From an uncultured Actinomycetes bacterium (GTDB taxonomy: Bacteria; Actinomycetota; Actinomycetes; Nanopelagicales; Nanopelagicaceae): 44,504 nt of DNA. Shown here in pieces: positions 2,641-37,375 of the stretch. Under the pieces are notes generated by a model that saw nothing but the letters and a program-made list of their open reading frames with translations, was not told the origin of the DNA and searched no databases. The stretch covers positions 1 to 44,504 of the forward strand of contig CAINRG010000008.1 of assembly GCA_903852585.1 (NCBI GenBank). Reading direction: 5' to 3'. Position 1 is the first letter of the stretch; the number at the start of each line of letters is the position of its first letter. Position numbers and translations under genes: made by a program.

Positions 2641-4329
2641 ATGACGAGCCACCAAGCCCAGATTCGGGTGGCCCTTGCGCAGATGAATCCAACTGTGGGC
2701 GATCTTGCGGGAAATTCATCCAAAATTCTGCATCAAGCACAGCTTGCCCATACAGCCGGTGCCCACCTCATTCTCTTTCCCGAGATGGTTTTAACCGGAT
2801 ACCCCGTAGAAGATTTAGCGCTTCGATCCACATTTCGCGATGCCTCCAAGAAAGCACTCGCGCAGCTTGCTCCGCTACTTCCTCCAGAGCTGGCTGCGGT
2901 CATTGGCTATCTTGAAGAGAGCGAGAACGGCAAACCACAAAATGCGGTTGCCCTTATTCACCAGGGAGAAATTCGCGCTCGCTACATAAAGCACCACCTA
3001 CCTAACTATGGCGTCTTTGATGAATTTAGAAATTTTGTGGCGGGTTCAGAGTCTTTGATCTTTCGACTTCATGGCATCGATATTGGTCTTGCCATTTGTG
3101 AGGATATTTGGAGATTTGAAGGACCGATAGCAAACCTTGCCGGCCGCGCACCTGGTCTTGTCCTTGTTCCAAACGGCTCGCCTTTTGAGCGAAATAAAGA
3201 TGATATTCGAGCAGCCCTAGTGCAAAAGCGTGCTCGAGAAATCGGAGCTCCTGTTGTCTATGTCAATATGACAGGAGGTCAGGATGAGCTTGTCTTTGAT
3301 GGCGACAGCATCGTGGTGGACTCACAAGGAGCTGTTCTTGCTCGGGCCCCACAATTTGATGACGCCCTCATCGTTGTAGATCTTGAATGCGATACAAGGA
3401 CATCCAAGCCCGATCTAATTATTTCAGATGGCACTGTGGCACCTTACGAAAAATTGGAATTAAAAAAATCTGCGCGCCTTGATGAAGCGGCTGAAATTTG
3501 GCAAGCCCTTGTTGTGGGCCTTCGCGACTATGTTGAAAAGAATAGATTTCCAAGCGTCATCCTTGGCCTTTCTGGCGGAATCGATTCTGCCGTCACTGCG
3601 GCAATTGCGGCAGATGCATTGGGACCGGCCCGGGTATTTGGTGTTGCGCTCCCAAGCAAATATTCCTCTGAGCATTCGCTGCATGATGCTGCGGATCTGG
3701 CTCATCGAATCGGTTTAAATCATCGAATCGTTCCCATCCAAGAAATGGTGGATCAGTTTGTTTCTCACCTCTCACTCACCGGTCTTGCCGAGGAGAATGT
3801 ACAAGCGCGTGTTCGTGGAACAACATTGATGGGAATTTCCAATCAAGAGGGTCACTTAGTTTTGGCCACAGGAAATAAATCAGAACTTGCCGTTGGATAT
3901 TCCACGATGTACGGCGATGCGGTCGGGGGATATGCACCGATAAAAGATTTGCTCAAAATGCAGGTGTGGGAGATTGCTCGATGGAGAAATGAAAAGGCAA
4001 AAATGCGGGGAGAAGTGGCCCCCATCCCTGAAAGCTCCATTTCAAAAGAACCGTCTGCAGAATTGCGCCCTGACCAAAAGGATTCTGATTCACTTCCAGA
4101 TTACGAGCTCCTCGATGCGATGCTTGAAATTTATATCGAGCAGGACGGTGGACTCGAGGGGCTACTTACTGCCGGTTTTAGCAAAGAGCTTGCAACAAGG
4201 ACTGTTGCGATGGTGGATCGAGCCGAATACAAGCGCCGCCAATATCCACCGGGCACAAAGATTTCTTCTCGAGCCTTTGGCAAGGATCGTCGTTTGCCAA
4301 TTACGAGCAAGTGGCGCGAAAACTTATAA
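2641..4329 (+). CDS. nadE: Glutamine-dependent NAD(+) synthetase
   Basis: This two-domain enzyme makes NAD from deamido-NAD, ATP and glutamine. The N-terminal nitrilase-type glutaminase (about residues 8-265) shows the Glu in FPEMVLTGYP, the Lys in YIKHHLPNYG and the catalytic Cys in LAICEDIW. The C-terminal ATP-pyrophosphatase domain carries SGGIDS at residues 311-316 and the synthetase block LATGNKSELAVGY. At 562 residues it belongs to the shorter two-domain bacterial type, not the roughly 680-residue mycobacterial type. The ATG at 2641 is preferred for its leaderless -10. Confidence 0.95.
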   Translation: MTSHQAQIRVALAQMNPTVGDLAGNSSKILHQAQLAHTAGAHLILFPEMVLTGYPVEDLALRSTFRDASKKALAQLAPLLPPELAAVIGYLEESENGKPQNAVALIHQGEIRARYIKHHLPNYGVFDEFRNFVAGSESLIFRLHGIDIGLAICEDIWRFEGPIANLAGRAPGLVLVPNGSPFERNKDDIRAALVQKRAREIGAPVVYVNMTGGQDELVFDGDSIVVDSQGAVLARAPQFDDALIVVDLECDTRTSKPDLIISDGTVAPYEKLELKKSARLDEAAEIWQALVVGLRDYVEKNRFPSVILGLSGGIDSAVTAAIAADALGPARVFGVALPSKYSSEHSLHDAADLAHRIGLNHRIVPIQEMVDQFVSHLSLTGLAEENVQARVRGTTLMGISNQEGHLVLATGNKSELAVGYSTMYGDAVGGYAPIKDLLKMQVWEIARWRNEKAKMRGEVAPIPESSISKEPSAELRPDQKDSDSLPDYELLDAMLEIYIEQDGGLEGLLTAGFSKELATRTVAMVDRAEYKRRQYPPGTKISSRAFGKDRRLPITSKWRENL

Positions 4330-4330
4330 T
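4325..4330 (+). promoter_or_regulatory. Consensus -10 element for the metYX transcript
   Basis: A perfect TATAAT overlaps the nadE stop codon and lies 18 bases before the riboswitch aptamer, which sets transcription start near 4337. The -35 region is weak (TTACGA at 4301-4306, 18-base spacer). The promoter is therefore embedded in the end of nadE. Confidence 0.6.
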
Positions 4331-4347
4331 CGTTTAATATTTTCCCA

Positions 4348-4460
4348 GGTCACGAGTTCCAATGTTTAGCCCCGGCTTATTGGACGGCAACCCTCCACCA
4401 CGGTGGGGTGCTCCGGGTGAAGACCAGGTCGACTGCACAGTGCAGCGGCAAGCGTGGGTC
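4348..4460 (+). promoter_or_regulatory. SAM-IV riboswitch upstream of metY
   Basis: The leader carries the SAM-IV hallmarks in order: GGTCACGAG at the 5' side of P1, AGCCCCGGCTTATTGGACGG, the SAM-core GGCAACCCTCCACC, CGGTGGGGTGCTCCGGGTGA, the closing AGACCAGG, then a CTGCA/TGCAG hairpin and GCGGCAAGCGTGGGTC. SAM-IV shares the SAM-I binding core but differs in its peripheral helices, and is known mainly from actinobacteria. It sits directly before the sulfhydrylase metY. A possible translational platform follows: CTCCT (4479-4483) can pair with the Shine-Dalgarno AGGAG (4493-4497), while ATACA (4461-4465) can pair with TGTAT (4483-4487), and the two cannot form together. Identity is firm; the switching mechanism is inferred. 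Confidence 0.9.
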
Positions 4461-4503
4461 ATACAAAGCGGTAGGGCCCTCCTGTATCTATAAGGAGCGT
4501 AAT

Positions 4504-5823
4504 ATGTCATTTGATTTAGCAAAATCTTCCTTTGAAACACGTCAGATTCACGCTGGGCAAGTACCAGATCCAACAACAGGTGCGCGAGCACTTCCTATTT
4601 ATCAAACAACTGCCTACCAATTCAAAGATACAACCCATGCTGCAAATCTCTTTGGACTAGCCGAGCTTGGAAATATTTACACCCGCATCATGAATCCAAC
4701 CCAGGATGCTGTCGAACAACGCATTGCTTCTCTTGAAGGAGGAGTAGCAGCCCTTCTTGTCTCATCAGGATCGGCCGCAACGACATATGCAATCCAAAAT
4801 GTTGCCGAAGCTGGCGATCACATTGTTTCCTCCCCAAGCCTTTATGGTGGTACTTATAACCTCTTCCATTACACATTGAAAAAGTTCGGCATAGATGTGA
4901 CATTTGTCGAGAACCCAGATGATCCAGAGTCATGGCGTAAGGCTGTTCGCCCTAATACAAAAGCGTTTTTTGGTGAAACGATCGCCAATCCAAAGAATGA
5001 TATTTTAGATATCGAAACTGTGGCAAAGATTGCACACGAAAATGGCGTTCCTCTCATTGTCGATAACACAGTTGCGACACCATATTTGATTCGTCCTATT
5101 GAATACGGTGCCGACGTCGTTGTTCACTCAGCAACAAAGTTCTTATCCGGTCATGGAACTGCTGTTGTTGGCGCAATTGTGGATGCCGGTAATTTCGATT
5201 ACGCAAAACATGTTGCTAAATTCCCTGGATTCAATGAGCCAGACCCTTCCTACCACGGCCTTGTTTATTCACAAGCTTTGGGAGTCGGCTCGCCATTTGG
5301 AGCAAATCTTTCTTACATCTTTAAGATTCGCCTGACACTTTTGCGCGATACTGGTGCTGCAGTCAGCCCATTTAATGCCTGGCTGCTTGCTCAGGGTCTT
5401 GAGACTCTCTCCCTTCGTATCGAACGTCACGTCGAAAATGCAAAGAACTTGGCGACCTGGCTTGAGAAGCAACCTCACGTTGAAAAGGTCAATTATGCAG
5501 CGCTTGCTTCCTCTCCATGGCATGCATTGGCAACAAAGTACGCACCCAAGGGAAGTGGATCCGTTCTCTCCTTCGAATTAAAGGGTGGAGTGGAAGCCGG
5601 TAAGAAGTTCATCGAAGCTCTGGTGCTTCATTCACATGTAGCAAATATCGGCGATGTTCGATCCCTGGCTATTCATCCTGCTTCAACGACGCACTCTCAA
5701 CTCTCAGCTGAAGAGCAACTTGCAGCAGGTGTTACGCCAGGGCTTGTTCGCCTCTCAGTTGGTATTGAAAATATCGAGGATATCAAGGCCGATATTGAAG
5801 GAGGGTTTGCAGCTTCTCGCTAG
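4504..5823 (+). CDS. metY: O-acetylhomoserine sulfhydrylase
   Basis: This PLP enzyme condenses O-acetylhomoserine with sulfide (or methanethiol) to give homocysteine (or methionine). At 439 residues it has the MetY length, longer than the roughly 380-400 of cystathionine synthase or lyase. The Cys/Met PLP family signature is clear: YTRIMNPT near residue 60, SSGSAA for phosphate binding, VDNTVATPYL, and the PLP lysine in HSATKFLSGHG at residue 212. The ATG at 4504 has AGGAG at 4493-4497. Longer in-frame reading into the leader would run through the riboswitch and is rejected. metX follows after 24 bases, presumably in one SAM-controlled unit. Confidence 0.95.
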   Translation: MSFDLAKSSFETRQIHAGQVPDPTTGARALPIYQTTAYQFKDTTHAANLFGLAELGNIYTRIMNPTQDAVEQRIASLEGGVAALLVSSGSAATTYAIQNVAEAGDHIVSSPSLYGGTYNLFHYTLKKFGIDVTFVENPDDPESWRKAVRPNTKAFFGETIANPKNDILDIETVAKIAHENGVPLIVDNTVATPYLIRPIEYGADVVVHSATKFLSGHGTAVVGAIVDAGNFDYAKHVAKFPGFNEPDPSYHGLVYSQALGVGSPFGANLSYIFKIRLTLLRDTGAAVSPFNAWLLAQGLETLSLRIERHVENAKNLATWLEKQPHVEKVNYAALASSPWHALATKYAPKGSGSVLSFELKGGVEAGKKFIEALVLHSHVANIGDVRSLAIHPASTTHSQLSAEEQLAAGVTPGLVRLSVGIENIEDIKADIEGGFAASR

Positions 5824-32422: not shown

Positions 32423-34342
32423 CTAACTCAGAGTGATGACGACAACCGTTCCGCGCTTCACCTTTGTGCCAACCTTTGGTGAAATACCCGTAACTTTTTT
32501 GATCTTCTTACTCCCGATTTTCTTAACACTGACCTTCAACTGGAGGCTTTCCAGAGATGTCCGAGCTGCCGATTCGGTGAGTGAGTAGAGGTTTGGAATA
32601 AAGATAAATTCGGTGCCTCGTGAAATAACGAGAGTGATTTTTGAACCTTTAGGAGCGGTCGACCCCGTATCGGGATCTTGACGAATAACTCCACCTGCTG
32701 GAACCGATTCACTGTAGGCAAATGCACTCTTCACAACAAAGCCGGCATCGGTTAGTTCATTTGTGGCTTGATCTGAAGTTTTTCCAACATAGGAGGTGAG
32801 TGCAATTTGTTCAATTCCCTTGCTGAGCAGAAGATCAACAATTGAATTGCGGCGAACAGGAGTACCGGCTGAAGGATTACCGTCGACAATAAGATTTGCT
32901 GCAACTTTCATGTCGAATGCTTGAGAAGTATTACCAACTTTGAGCCCGGCGTTAATGAGTGCTGCAGTAGCTGCATCTTGAGTGAGACCGGAAAGAGATG
33001 GAACGAGAATTCTCTCCTTTCCCTTTGAAAGAACTAAATGAACTGTTCCATTCTTTGGAAGATGACCACCACCACCCGGGATTGATGTCAGTACGAGCCC
33101 TTTATCCACTTCCTCGCTGAAATCTTGCGCCGTGACATCGCTCTGAAGCCCAAGGTGTGAAATTTCAGATTTTGCATCGTCAATACTCAGGCCCACCACG
33201 GAAGGAATGGAGATTTGAGATCCTGGACCTAGGAATTGGTACCAAGATCCTGCACCCACGACAATTACCAAGGACGCTGCAATAACTCGATTTCTCTTCA
33301 CTCGCTTTGATGCTCGCCTTCTAATTTCCGAGGTGGGGCTCACTTCGGCAGTTTTAATGGGTTGAGTCAAACTCTTCACTCGTTCAATGACATGAGCCCC
33401 AATTCGTATTTCACCCTTCGGCGCCTTACTCCTCTTGATGGGTCGCTCGGTCGGCAAAGGGAGATCTAATTCAAGGCTGAGCTGACGCTTGCGCGGATCA
33501 ATATTTTCTTGAATTGTTCGAAGTGAATTGAGGAGCTCGCGAGCATCTCTAAATCTCTTATCAGGATCTGGATCGGTCGCTCTCGAAATCAAAATTTCGA
33601 TCTCTTCTGAAAGTTCTGGCTTGATTGTTCGAACCGCTGGAACGCGTTCGTTGACGTGTTTGTAAGCAATTTGAATAGGTGTCTCACCATCAAATGGTTT
33701 TCTTCCGCAAAGAAGTTCAAAAAGAACAATTCCCAGGGAGTAAATATCGCTTCGCGCATCTGAAATGCCACGTTGGACTTGCTCGGGAGAAAGGTAGGAG
33801 ACACTTCCTAAAACAACGCTGGACTCGGCAGTTTGGGTGGATCCGAGCTGATCGCCACGAGCCAATCCAAAATCAGCAATTTTTACGCGTCCATCTTTAG
33901 AGATCAAGATATTTTCAGGCTTTATATCTCGATGGATAATTCCAATTGAGTGCGCCTCTGCTAGCGCACTCACTACGGGAATGATGTACCGAAGAACCTC
34001 TTCTATGGAGAGTGAGCCACGCTCAAAAAGGTAATCACGTAAGGTGCTTCCTTCAATGTATTCCATCACAATAAAGACTGCAGGTGAACCACCTTCATTC
34101 CAACCTTGATCTTGGATGGAGACAACATTTGGGTGATTGAGAGAGGCAGTAGCTTTCGCCTCTTTAATAAAACGGTCAACAAATTCTTCATCGTTTGCAA
34201 GATGAGGGTGCATAATCTTTACTGCGACGAGTCGATCCAACCGCTGATCCATCGCAAGATAAATCGAGGCCATGCCACCAGCGGCAATAATCTTCTGTAG
34301 CTGGTAACGGCCGTCGATGAGCTCGCCGGTTAGATCTGACAC
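32423..34342 (-). CDS. pknL: PASTA-domain Ser/Thr protein kinase, PknL-like
   Basis: A 639-residue receptor kinase. The kinase domain (about 12-275) has the Gly loop IAAGGMASIYLA, catalytic VAVKI lysine, HRDIKPEN and DFGLAR, and a GSVSYLSPEQ activation segment. A basic juxtamembrane stretch leads to one membrane helix near 353-372. Four PASTA-like repeats follow outside, each with a VPSL/IPNL-type start and an end such as GTVHLVLSKG. PASTA domains of such kinases bind peptidoglycan fragments or lipid II. Gene order with aroG, idsA/crtE and metF matches mycobacterial pknL. The start is GTG 34342. The PknL substrate Rv2175c has no homologue in the window. Confidence 0.9.
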   Translation of the reverse strand: MSDLTGELIDGRYQLQKIIAAGGMASIYLAMDQRLDRLVAVKIMHPHLANDEEFVDRFIKEAKATASLNHPNVVSIQDQGWNEGGSPAVFIVMEYIEGSTLRDYLFERGSLSIEEVLRYIIPVVSALAEAHSIGIIHRDIKPENILISKDGRVKIADFGLARGDQLGSTQTAESSVVLGSVSYLSPEQVQRGISDARSDIYSLGIVLFELLCGRKPFDGETPIQIAYKHVNERVPAVRTIKPELSEEIEILISRATDPDPDKRFRDARELLNSLRTIQENIDPRKRQLSLELDLPLPTERPIKRSKAPKGEIRIGAHVIERVKSLTQPIKTAEVSPTSEIRRRASKRVKRNRVIAASLVIVVGAGSWYQFLGPGSQISIPSVVGLSIDDAKSEISHLGLQSDVTAQDFSEEVDKGLVLTSIPGGGGHLPKNGTVHLVLSKGKERILVPSLSGLTQDAATAALINAGLKVGNTSQAFDMKVAANLIVDGNPSAGTPVRRNSIVDLLLSKGIEQIALTSYVGKTSDQATNELTDAGFVVKSAFAYSESVPAGGVIRQDPDTGSTAPKGSKITLVISRGTEFIFIPNLYSLTESAARTSLESLQLKVSVKKIGSKKIKKVTGISPKVGTKVKRGTVVVITLS

Positions 34343-34348
34343 ACTTGG

Positions 34349-34354
34349 ATTTTA
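34349..34354 (-). promoter_or_regulatory. -10 element for a leaderless pknL transcript
   Basis: TAAAAT on the minus strand is six bases before GTG 34342, inside the 17-base gap after the P-loop kinase gene. Confidence 0.55.
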
Positions 34355-34359
34355 GAGAA

Positions 34360-34929
34360 CTACGGCCGATCTGCCCCTGAAGGCGCGCCACTCATTGCGT
34401 AATCCGCAGCACGCTCAGTCTCTTCGTTCATAAAATGCTTCTCTTCTAAAATCTGAAATTTCAACCATTCTTCCTTCAATTCGACGCCATCTCGCTCAAG
34501 GCCTCGGGCTAATCGCAATTCTTTCGGCGCCCAAATCCAAATTGAAAATGAGGCAAAATCTCGAATTGCCCTCTGCCCGCTGCCGACACCTTCCAGTATG
34601 AGAAAAGAGGGAAGAGGAAATTCAACTTCTTCTCGAAGTGATCCTTTATGCCAATCGTATGGACGATAGGAAATTCGACCCGAATCTGCGGCGCAAGTGA
34701 AAAGGTTGAGAAGTTTCTCCGAAAGAGAGGGAGTTAATGTGCTTTCCCATCCTTCGTAGAGGTCATCCATGTGAATGATTTCGCATTCAGGAAGAAAGCC
34801 CGAAAGTGCATGAGAAAGAGTTGTTTTGCCAGAGCCCGCAGGACCATCAATCGTAATGATCCTTGTCTCTCCGATAGTGGCAGGGGACTGGCGAATTCTT
34901 TCTACGAGATTTTGGATTTCTTCAGCCAT
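34360..34929 (-). CDS. P-loop small-molecule kinase (uridine kinase-like), possible vitamin kinase
   Basis: The 189-residue nucleotide-kinase fold has Walker A DGPAGSGKTTLSHAL near residues 28-42, an IIHMDDLYEGW Walker-B-like strand, a SYRPYDWHKG segment as in uridine kinases, and FLILEGVGSGQRA. A GGAGG motif nine bases away selects ATG 34929 over ATG 34938, where it would have no spacing. It overlaps the PnuT gene by 28 bases and lies in the same TPP-controlled unit. PnuC-type carriers need a kinase to trap cargo, so a thiamine or thiamine-precursor kinase is possible; ordinary uridine or nucleoside kinase is the alternative. Confidence 0.8.
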   Translation of the reverse strand: MAEEIQNLVERIRQSPATIGETRIITIDGPAGSGKTTLSHALSGFLPECEIIHMDDLYEGWESTLTPSLSEKLLNLFTCAADSGRISYRPYDWHKGSLREEVEFPLPSFLILEGVGSGQRAIRDFASFSIWIWAPKELRLARGLERDGVELKEEWLKFQILEEKHFMNEETERAADYAMSGAPSGADRP

Positions 34930-35501
34930 CGAGCCCATCCTCCAACTGCAAGTCCCACAAATATCAGATACAAAATAGCGGTGAGATAGAGCTTTCCGTG
35001 GAAAAATTGATATGTATAAACGCCATCAACAACAAACCACAACGGCCATGCCTCATACTTTTCTTTCACCATAAGAACTTGAGCGATACAGCTTCCAGCA
35101 AATCCGAAGGCATCAGTCAGGCTTGCCGCAGCACCAATATGGGTAAGAAGCGGATACAGGGCAAACCAGGTAATAAGAAAACCAATTCCCCAATTTGCTT
35201 TGAGTTTTTTCGTGAGGCGTGCAGGTTTTGCTCCCTCTTTGCCCCAACCAAACCAACCCCATAGGCCTCCTGCGATAAATACAAATTGCAGAACGCCGCT
35301 TGCGTAGTACTTCTGCTCAAAAAAGAGAATCGCATATAAGAAGCTTGAAATATTCCACCAAGGCCAGGTTGAACGTGGCCCGAATATCCCTAAGGCCACA
35401 CCGACAACTGAAGTAATGAAGGCAAGAAATTCTAAGAACGATAAGTGATATCCCCAGGCGGTAAAAAGTGTAGTCATGAGGAATGTGTTGAGTGAATGCA
35501 T
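34902..35501 (-). CDS. pnuT: PnuC-family vitamin transporter, predicted thiamine transporter PnuT
   Basis: This 199-residue membrane protein has six to seven hydrophobic segments and the PnuC family features: SVVGVALGIFG with WWNISSFLYAILFF early, GLWGWFGWG in the middle, and the late WPLWFVVDGVYTYQFF block. PnuC carriers move nicotinamide riboside; the PnuT branch moves thiamine. A TPP riboswitch directly upstream points to thiamine or a precursor. The ATG at 35525 lies inside the riboswitch (the TAATG loop), so ATG 35501 with AAAGGGG six bases upstream is the real start. It overlaps the following kinase gene. Confidence 0.85.
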   Translation of the reverse strand: MHSLNTFLMTTLFTAWGYHLSFLEFLAFITSVVGVALGIFGPRSTWPWWNISSFLYAILFFEQKYYASGVLQFVFIAGGLWGWFGWGKEGAKPARLTKKLKANWGIGFLITWFALYPLLTHIGAAASLTDAFGFAGSCIAQVLMVKEKYEAWPLWFVVDGVYTYQFFHGKLYLTAILYLIFVGLAVGGWARWLKKSKIS

Positions 35502-35507
35502 GCGGTA

Positions 35508-35596
35508 CCCCTTTCCAATTCGCATTACCGAACTGGTCTCACGGTCGACCTGGATATCAGGTCCTCTCAGCCAATAATTCGGCTCCCGTCGCTACG
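35508..35596 (-). promoter_or_regulatory. TPP (THI-box) riboswitch upstream of pnuT
   Basis: On the minus strand the aptamer runs CGACGGGAGCC, a GGCTGAGAGG hallmark after a small loop, an ACCTG/CAGGT side stem, GACCG, then CCAGTTCG-GTAATG-CGAATTGG, an eight-pair P5 with the conserved TAATG loop, and GAAAGGGG. These are the conserved TPP aptamer elements. P1 is not obvious by eye. The pnuT Shine-Dalgarno AAAGGGG (35508-35514) forms the 3' edge, so ligand binding likely hides it and blocks translation. No separate terminator is seen. Confidence 0.9.
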
Positions 35597-35651
35597 AACA
35601 TTAGCACCATTTGATTGAATGAATTTGATTGCAGAAATGAGAGAATAGGGC

Positions 35652-35984
35652 GTGCTTAAGTTTGGATATATGGCGATGCTGCTATTTACGGTGGCAGGCT
35701 CCTTTTGGCTTGAGATTATTTTAAAAGTTGGAGTTCTGCGAAGGGTAAAGCGAACCATTTTCACAATTGCTCCCATGGCGATCATTTTTCTTTTGTGGGA
35801 TCTTTATGCGATCCATGCCGGTCATTGGTTTTTTGATTCCAAGCAAATACTTGGGATTTTCATCCCGGGCAGAATCCCACTGGAAGAGGTCCTCTTCTTT
35901 GTCATTGTTCCCCTTGCTGCCATCATGACAATTGAAGCGGTGAGAAGCGTTAAGAAGAATTGGCTCGTTGGAGATGAGCGATGA
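35652..35984 (+). CDS. crtYc: Lycopene cyclase subunit, CrtYc type
   Basis: This 110-residue membrane protein has about three hydrophobic segments and belongs to the heterodimeric actinobacterial lycopene cyclases. Typical features are SFWLEI, the DLYAIHAGHWFFD segment and PLEEVLFF with its conserved Pro-Glu-Glu. GTG 35652 is used, with ATG 35670 (TAAGTT seven bases ahead) as an alternative start. It faces away from the pnuT riboswitch and overlaps crtYd by four bases. Such pairs cyclise one or both lycopene ends to beta or epsilon rings. Confidence 0.85.
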   Translation: MLKFGYMAMLLFTVAGSFWLEIILKVGVLRRVKRTIFTIAPMAIIFLLWDLYAIHAGHWFFDSKQILGIFIPGRIPLEEVLFFVIVPLAAIMTIEAVRSVKKNWLVGDER

Positions 35985-36274
35985 CATACACACAAATCGC
36001 ATTGATGGCTGTTGCACTTTCGATTCTTTGCGATGGATTTTTGACTCGAAGCAGGATGGTTATGCGGCGTAGTTTTTGGACTGCTTATGCAATTATTCTT
36101 CCATTTCAATTACTCACAAATTGGTGGCTCACTTCTCGAAATATCGTGATGTACAACCCTGATGTCATTATTGGTTTTCGAATTGCAAGTGCTCCAGTAG
36201 AGGATCTTCTCTTCGGCTTCGCCCTTGTCCTCGGAATTCTTCAGTTGTGGAGCTATTGGGGAAAACGCCTTTAG
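35981..36274 (+). CDS. crtYd: Lycopene cyclase subunit, CrtYd type
   Basis: The 97-residue partner of CrtYc has about three membrane segments, TNWWLTSRNIVMYNPD and the conserved PVEDLLFGFAL (the second PxE(E/D) motif of the family). It is translated through an ATGA overlap with crtYc. Both subunits are needed for activity in Corynebacterium and Brevibacterium. The stop overlaps that of the convergent crtB by two bases. Ring type (beta or epsilon) cannot be read. Confidence 0.83.
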   Translation: MTYTQIALMAVALSILCDGFLTRSRMVMRRSFWTAYAIILPFQLLTNWWLTSRNIVMYNPDVIIGFRIASAPVEDLLFGFALVLGILQLWSYWGKRL

Positions 36275-37188
36275 CGTGCTCGTATCGCACGAAGATATGC
36301 AGGAAGTGCCACTTTGATGCGGCGCCATGTAGAAGTCTTTGCTCGAAAGTTGAAGATGTCGTAGCCAATATCTTCAACTTCATCGACGATTCCGCAGTAC
36401 AACTCACTCGCTGCTTCAATGCATGGACGACTCGCAGGTTCGAGCATCGCGATTCCGACAGACGCCTCTCTTTGGAGGTTTCGAACTCGCTCGATCTGAA
36501 ATTTGATTGCTTCGACAATAGGGGGAGTGAGTTGGCGCGCAAAGAGATCTTCACGCGTGACGCCAAAGCGCGCTAAATCATCTATAGGAATATAGATTCG
36601 ACCTCGTTCCAAATCCTCGCCTATGTCTCGAATAAAGTTTGCCAGTTGGAATGCAATACCGAGTTTCTTTGCAGCCTCAAACGCTTCCGGTGAAAGGGCT
36701 CCCAGAATTGGAACCATCTGCAATCCGATAACGGCGGCGCTTCCGTAGACATATTCCATGAGGTCTTCGTATGTCCGGTATTCGTTGACAGTTAAATCCA
36801 TCTCCATGGAATGAAGAAATGCTTCGAAGTATTCGATAGGAATGGAATACTTTTTTACTGTGTCGACGAGTGCTCGACCAATTGGGTCGATACTGGTGCC
36901 TCCACGAATATCGGAGATTGCCTGGGCTCCCCACCCTTTGAGAGCTGCCGCCTTCTCTTCCTCCGTGAGAGTTGAAGAAAGATCGTCGACAATTTCATCG
37001 GCGTATCGAGCAAATCCATAGAGAGCATGTACATAAGGCCGCTTGGCGGCCGGTAATAAAAGAGTTGCAAGATAGTAAGTTTTTCCATGTTGAGAGTTGA
37101 GCCGCTTGCATTCGGCGTATGAAGCAGCCAGAACAGGTTCGAGAATTCCTGCCGCTCTCAATTCGCTCACGCGGGGGAGTCTACGCAT
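36271..37188 (-). CDS. crtB: Phytoene synthase
   Basis: It joins two GGPP molecules head to head to make phytoene. The squalene/phytoene-synthase fold shows both Asp-rich sites, YADEIVDDL and NFIRDIGEDLERGRIYIP, and the TYYLATLLLP opening block. From ATG 37188 the protein has 305 residues. GTG 37170 (six codons later) has TAGACT seven bases ahead and may be the true leaderless start. The longer frame to 37332 is unlike the family. It is isolated from crtE/crtI by the AzgA gene. Confidence 0.92.
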   Translation of the reverse strand: MRRLPRVSELRAAGILEPVLAASYAECKRLNSQHGKTYYLATLLLPAAKRPYVHALYGFARYADEIVDDLSSTLTEEEKAAALKGWGAQAISDIRGGTSIDPIGRALVDTVKKYSIPIEYFEAFLHSMEMDLTVNEYRTYEDLMEYVYGSAAVIGLQMVPILGALSPEAFEAAKKLGIAFQLANFIRDIGEDLERGRIYIPIDDLARFGVTREDLFARQLTPPIVEAIKFQIERVRNLQREASVGIAMLEPASRPCIEAASELYCGIVDEVEDIGYDIFNFRAKTSTWRRIKVALPAYLRAIRAR

Positions 37189-37375
37189 ATCTGCGCGCTC
37201 AATCCTCAATCTGAACTCGAGGGTTTTGTAAAAAATCCCCTTCTCGCTCGCACATATTTGCCGATCTTTCTCGCGAGTAACCATTAGGTTTTCACTATTC
37301 CCTCCTGGCTTGCATCCAGTTTGAAACTGCACGGGGTCGCAAACACCCCCGATACCAAAATCAGAGAGGTACTAC

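Follow-up and report, generated by a model that had tools for sequence, protein, structure and literature searches.

A putative thiamine import-and-trap operon behind a variant TPP-type leader in freshwater Nanopelagicales

Organization of the locus

The window examined in this study is a 44,504-nt stretch of contig CAINRG010000008.1 from an uncultured actinomycete of the family Nanopelagicaceae. Its minus strand carries, from position 35599 down to 34360 and in order of transcription, a leader RNA of the TPP type, a gene for a PnuC-family transporter, and a gene for a P-loop kinase. The transporter gene, pnuT (34902-35501, minus strand), codes for a PnuC-family facilitator (PF04973, E = 2e-35, 122.8 bits), which also scores above the cut-off of TIGR01528 (PnuC). 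The start codon of pnuT, ATG at 35501, is conserved and reads ATGCAT in close relatives; an upstream ATG at 35525 is also possible. The kinase gene (34360-34929, alternative start at 34938, minus strand) overlaps the end of pnuT by 28 bases when counted from its second ATG (34929) and by 37 bases when counted from the first (34938). The transporter family and the 28-base overlap with a P-loop kinase had both been named in the original prediction, which was made from the sequence alone, and both are confirmed.

The product of pnuT is predicted to carry thiamine, on the strength of its leader and of a proposal published in 2017 that acI PnuC proteins with a THI element are probably PnuT, a thiamine transporter (PMC5301498).

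The operon is flanked by carotenoid genes, namely a lycopene-cyclase-like pair and a phytoene-synthase-like ORF, and by the gene of a PASTA Ser/Thr kinase (window positions 32423-37332). In several relatives, the kinase gene of the operon lies immediately 3' of a phytoene-synthase-like gene. Elsewhere in the window there is a SAM-IV riboswitch (4348-4460, plus strand, 104.9 bits), which was the sole report of the standard scan for RNA families; the TPP-type aptamer was missed by that scan.

The leader RNA lacks the pyrophosphate-sensor loop

The TPP-type (THI element) aptamer occupies positions 35496-35599 on the minus strand, with a modelled core at 35504-35590. It matches RF00059 at 35.8 bits (E = 1.3e-5 against the whole 1.35-Mb genome, where it is the only match to this family), which is below the RF00059 gathering score of 54.3 bits; the leaders of relatives score 32-44 bits. 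Our own covariance model of the variant, R1, gives 95.3 bits, a score to be read with the window's own leader included among the rows of the model.

In the thiM aptamer of E. coli, the T-loop grips the pyrimidine, and three highly conserved nucleotides of the J4-5/J5-4 loop, G60, C77 and G78, touch the pyrophosphate or its metal ion (PMC3764141, PMC7824784). The pyrimidine sensor is present in all 45 aligned leaders, as invariant columns and covarying helices (T-loop, P2, P3 and P3a); the T-loop itself, CUGAGA at 35565-35570 on the minus strand, is invariant in leader alignment A4 and, from the thiM structure (PMC3764141), would sense the pyrimidine (HMP) moiety. The pyrophosphate sensor J4-5/J5-4, with G60, C77 and G78, is absent, as P4 runs into P5 without a single unpaired nucleotide in every one of the 45. 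Canonical TPP aptamers, including those found in the same family, have the arrangement ACC-UGAU-P5-GUAAUG-P5'-CGC-AGGGA, whereas the pnuT leaders read CCAGUUCG-GUAAUG-CGAAUUGG or covarying versions of it, such as CCCGUCCG-GUAAUG-CGGACGCGG, and form a single continuous stem. In the window, this fused P4-P5 (35515-35536, minus strand) is an uninterrupted helix of 8 bp, CCAGUUCG/CGAAUUGG, closed by L5 GUAAUG. The UAAU of L5 (U64 A65 A66 U67) is invariant in A4 and presumably docks on P3.

The structure as stated is 95.7% paired over 45 distinct leaders and contains 12 pairs with two-sided changes (81 such cells). None of 500 shuffles matched the observed pairing or covariation, and slid registers score far lower. 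Within the P4-P5 stem (helix 5), 93.6% of cells are paired, and double changes are seen at three pairs. Simple decay of a riboswitch was rejected on this evidence, since the form has been kept throughout the order and its paired positions show compensatory changes.

The leader has P2, P3, P3a, the CUGAGA T-loop and L5 in common with RF00059 TPP riboswitches, and differs from them in the loss of J4-5/J5-4, in its sub-gathering score, and apparently in the loss of P1, the closing helix, several positions of which form non-standard pairs in the cmscan alignment of the window leader. The aptamer can hardly be called well-formed, as it was in the original prediction, and the term 'TPP-controlled' used there is an assumption for a leader without the pyrophosphate-binding loop of TPP riboswitches. 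A literature search of incomplete coverage found no description of a TPP variant without J4-5.

A putative -10 box, TAATGT, lies at 35598-35603 (minus strand), with transcription predicted to start near 35591. In 42 of 44 leaders, against a mean of 3.6 and a maximum of 9 in shuffled sequences, the motif TANNNT occurs 8-11 nt ahead of GGGAGC at P2. Given this spacing and the predicted promoter, the transcript probably begins at P2, against its 5' edge, and does not include P1. At the other end of the aptamer, a Shine-Dalgarno-like sequence, GGAAAGGGG (35508-35516, minus strand), is directly 3' of P4 and 6 nt ahead of the ATG; such a motif followed by a start codon is found in 41 of 44 leaders. 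The position of the Shine-Dalgarno sequence immediately after P4 suggests that the leader controls translation.

The kinase belongs to the PRK/uridine kinase fold

The kinase matches PF00485 at 28.5 bits (cut-off 22). Its AlphaFold model, with mean pLDDT of 92.4, has the PRK/uridine kinase fold and is matched by pantothenate kinase (Z 18.2), uridine-cytidine kinase 2 (Z 17.4) and NRK1 (Z 12.1), the last of which is found also among the sequence matches. Kinases with this fold phosphorylate hydroxyls of vitamins and nucleosides, and members of the superfamily produce monophosphates. The closest named family is NF005115 (PRK06547, hypothetical protein), to which no function is assigned; the kinase scores 106.2 bits against it, short of its cut-off of 173. 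Neither the catalytic domain of thiamine pyrophosphokinase (TPK, PF04263) nor the APH domain (PF01636, the fold of ThiK) is found among the Pfam matches of the kinase at E up to 1, which agrees with the earlier placement of this protein outside the ThiN/Tnr3 and ThiK families.

The conserved residues of the family are the P-loop, an HMDDxYxGW motif (D58, Y61, W64), W96, E116-G117, R145 and R149. By analogy with uridine kinases, D58 or D59 may act as the catalytic base, and the aromatic residues may stack against the ring of the substrate. Six of these residues, D58, W64, W96, E116, R145 and R149, are identical in kinases that are linked to pnuT and in those that are not, so the substrate could be a general one.

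A gap in the thiamine pathway

Genes of the thiamine pathway were searched for singly, family by family. ThiL is present in the same genome as the window (G000:C15, 190 bits over cut-off), in the genus, and in almost all genomes searched within the family. Searches for ThiE, ThiC and the TPK domain (PF04263, over the whole genome) found none of them in this genome or in its genus, and the search for an APH/ThiK-type protein in this genome gave no clear match and one weak one (E = 1.7e-4). Outside this family, PF04263 matches in the class span only about 35 of the 113 positions of the domain, within long proteins, and were not accepted as TPK.

The substrate of ThiL is thiamine monophosphate. 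With ThiL in place, and with ThiE, ThiC, TPK and a clear ThiK absent, the cell would need either thiamine monophosphate made from thiamine by a kinase or imported thiamine monophosphate. The adjoining kinase is the best candidate for the conversion of thiamine to thiamine monophosphate, and its membership in a superfamily of monophosphate-forming enzymes fits the retention of ThiL. Another route must exist somewhere, since a 1.4-Mb actinomycete genome (G040) has ThiL and lacks ThiE, ThiC, a TPP element, TPK and this kinase. The published account of acI, as far as it was consulted here, reports the lack of nearly all enzymes of de novo thiamine synthesis and salvage, and leaves open the step from imported thiamine to its phosphorylated form (PMC5301498).

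Conservation and distribution of the pair

The two genes are tightly coupled. In all 55 loci of Nanopelagicales (freshwater acI) that have both, pnuT ends at -38 to +27 bases relative to the start of the kinase gene, and a TPP-type leader stands before nearly all pnuT-kinase loci with sufficient upstream sequence. The kinases of coupled loci often share only 35-48% identity, with the variant leader retained. Among 60 relatives searched, the kinase was found in 41 and pnuT in 30. A scan of public genomes with kinase alignment A1 returned 80 named loci, including those of Candidatus Planktophila, Candidatus Nanopelagicus and strain IMCC26103.

In a maximum-likelihood tree, kinases of Nanopelagicales group together, except for the divergent copy of the window, with weak support for the split. 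Kinases without an adjacent pnuT (G034, G033, G020, G006, L172, L185) are nested among those that have it, i.e., the tree indicates that pnuT was lost repeatedly while the kinase was kept. In one of these genomes (G033), a pnuT preceded by a variant leader of its own lies at a separate site (L067).

The window kinase shares 43-50% identity with its relatives, and the accompanying pnuT shares 81-84% with the same genomes; kinase pairs from genomes with such pnuT identity usually share about 51-63%. The window kinase also has G146 and W158, as do unlinked actinobacterial members. Given this excess divergence and these two residues, a foreign copy may have replaced the original gene in situ.

Three genomes of the same genus (G016, G020 and G026; loci L094, L093 and L076) have lost pnuT, have kept the kinase, and have a strong canonical TPP riboswitch on the binding protein of a ThiB-type ABC transporter, which scores about 220 bits against TIGR01254 (cut-off 93.4) in the two genomes tested, G016 and G020. 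These genomes bear upon the classical role of PnuC proteins, which is transport of nicotinamide riboside. A PnuC (TIGR01528) next to a kinase that has NRK1 among both its sequence and fold matches might be taken for a nicotinamide riboside pair; we give this reading hardly any credence and have rejected it, on account of the TPP-type leader, which precedes nearly all copies whose upstream sequence is long enough, and of the ThiB-type transporter under a TPP riboswitch in the sister genomes that lack pnuT. The enteric ThiBPQ transporter also carries thiamine phosphates (PMC4112796), and by that analogy the kinase may be dispensable in ThiB lineages. In G036, ThiE is present, a TPP riboswitch stands before a CytX-like transporter gene, and the kinase is missing; G034 has ThiC and ThiE, and keeps the kinase without pnuT.

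In the class as a whole the kinase family is widespread irrespective of ThiE, being present in 148 of 218 genomes, 104 of which have ThiE. Phylogenetic profiling of these 218 genomes gave no association of the kinase with the absence of ThiE outside the family (Fisher p = 0.58), and the profile was discarded as support for a role in thiamine metabolism. Either thiamine phosphorylation is an old and general function of this kinase family, or its members have another substrate. Unlinked relatives are mostly found away from thiamine genes, for example between crtB and a PASTA kinase gene or beside homologs of argH, mpg and tyrS. One of them (L171, positions 3955-5573) overlaps the 3' end of a gene for an NMT1/THI5-type ABC substrate-binding protein, with a divergent gene for an ABC ATPase upstream; a TPP element was looked for at this locus and not found.

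The wide distribution, the unlinked contexts and the shared active site all fit a general actinobacterial small-molecule kinase, acting on a nucleoside or another compound, that merely happens to be downstream of pnuT, the thiamine kinase being some other protein. We regard this as unlikely, though as a serious alternative: it has to contend with the coupling at 55 of 55 loci, with retention of the kinase through exchanges of the transporter, with the failure to find a known enzyme forming thiamine monophosphate in the genome (ThiE, TPK and a clear ThiK type were searched for), and with the placement of the unlinked relative just described directly 3' of a gene for an NMT1/THI5-type binding protein.

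The explanation that we favor, and hold to be reasonably probable from gene context and the pathway gap, is that the pair serves a streamlined actinobacterium auxotrophic for thiamine as an import-and-trap operon for this vitamin and that the kinase phosphorylates thiamine. PnuT would admit thiamine down its gradient, and the downstream protein of the NRK/uridine kinase/pantothenate kinase superfamily would convert it to thiamine monophosphate and so trap it; ThiL, which is encoded elsewhere in the genome, would then form TPP. The leader, which lacks the pyrophosphate-sensor loop and is set against the ribosome-binding site, would govern translation of both genes. Coupling, the pathway gap, persistence of the kinase after loss of pnuT, and the genome that has ThiE and lacks the kinase (G036) all count in favor of this explanation.

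The role in thiamine salvage given to the locus in the original prediction is upheld by the presence of ThiL, the otherwise missing source of thiamine monophosphate, and conservation of the unit across Nanopelagicales. Its assignment of the kinase to thiamine or a thiamine precursor fares less evenly, being backed by the pathway gap and the coupling and weakened by the wider family, which lies away from thiamine genes and shows no profile association. Outside Nanopelagicales, relatives of the kinase are frequent and lie apart from genes under TPP control, which in part matches the distribution that the original prediction had named as counting against it.

Loop-less leaders in other loci and the question of the ligand

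A scan of 396 genomes of the phylum with R1 showed that a second lineage also has the loop-less form (G378, G408, G427; loci L191-L193); its members are 1.8-Mb actinomycetotes from outside the class. At L191 (1478-2990), the J4-5-less leader is followed by genes for ThiT (TIGR02357, over the cut-off) and thiamine pyrophosphokinase (TIGR01378, over the cut-off), and genes clearly similar to these two stand behind the leader at L193. A transporter and a thiamine kinase behind a loop-less leader support the proposed reading of the Nanopelagicales pair. The presence of a one-step enzyme under the same type of leader might also suggest that the kinase of the window is itself a thiamine pyrophosphokinase and ThiL a relic. 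This we consider very improbable, given the fold, which is that of monophosphate-forming kinases, and the near-universal presence of ThiL among the searched genomes of the family.

Another J4-5-less leader (L207, minus strand) precedes genes for a ThiO-like FAD-dependent oxidase and a small ThiS-like protein, which by our reading of the translations are biosynthesis genes. There are also intermediate leaders (L202, L194), in which only the left strand of the loop has been lost. Leaders that have lost the loop are therefore not confined to salvage operons, and it may still be TPP that they bind.

The leader may thus be an ordinary TPP riboswitch that tolerates the loss of J4-5 and still senses TPP, a reading that concerns the RNA only and is compatible with a thiamine kinase downstream. 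We give it slightly less than an even chance. The intact T-loop, P2, P3, P3a and L5 UAAU docking loop speak for it, as do the intermediates and the biosynthesis genes behind a loop-less leader at L207; against it stand the high conservation of the missing G60, C77 and G78 and their contacts with pyrophosphate or metal (PMC3764141, PMC7824784), the dependence of thiM switching in E. coli on pyrophosphate recognition (PMC4112796), and the fact that other TPP riboswitches in the same family have retained canonical loops. A changed ligand, judged from comparison of the leaders, is conceivable and somewhat doubtful. We entertain with similar reserve the fuller proposal of a distinct class derived from the TPP aptamer, which would sense unphosphorylated thiamine (or thiamine monophosphate), would have arisen or spread elsewhere on ThiT-TPK, would be conserved across Nanopelagicales, and would control there a type of thiamine kinase that fills the missing salvage step. 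For the present, the window leader is best treated as a variant TPP-type aptamer and should not be classed as an ordinary TPP riboswitch.

Relation to known systems and implications

The closest known layout is the TPP-riboswitch pnuT-tnr3 operon of Bacteroides (PMC5613172), which likewise has a TPP-type leader, PnuT and a downstream thiamine-phosphorylating gene, the last of these roles being a predicted one in our case. The Bacteroides gene tnr3 encodes a thiamine pyrophosphokinase, whereas here an unrelated protein of the NRK/uridine-kinase fold, together with ThiL, would serve; and the leader here is devoid of J4-5. The acI THI element with PnuC/PnuT (PMC5301498) shares with our locus the bacterial order, the transporter and the leader, and strain IMCC26103 belongs to both data sets (locus L180); those passages of that study that deal with the THI element and PnuT do not name the coupled kinase, ThiL or the loss of the pyrophosphate sensor. 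In the literature searched, neither the kinase nor the aptamer change in acI was found mentioned anywhere. PnuT and the THI element in acI have been in print since 2017, and what is new is the composition of the proposed import-and-trap unit.

In E. coli, salvage by ThiK and ThiL proceeds in two steps, from thiamine to thiamine monophosphate to TPP, as is proposed here. ThiK is a kinase of the APH fold, and the window kinase differs from it in having no Pfam match to APH.

The acI bacteria, which rank with the most abundant microbes of fresh water, cannot make thiamine, and a defined candidate kinase makes the phosphorylation step directly testable. The same candidate could give a name to a large unassigned family of actinobacterial proteins. 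The strongly conserved aptamer, which keeps the pocket for the vitamin ring and has lost the pocket for pyrophosphate, offers a natural test of ligand change in riboswitches.
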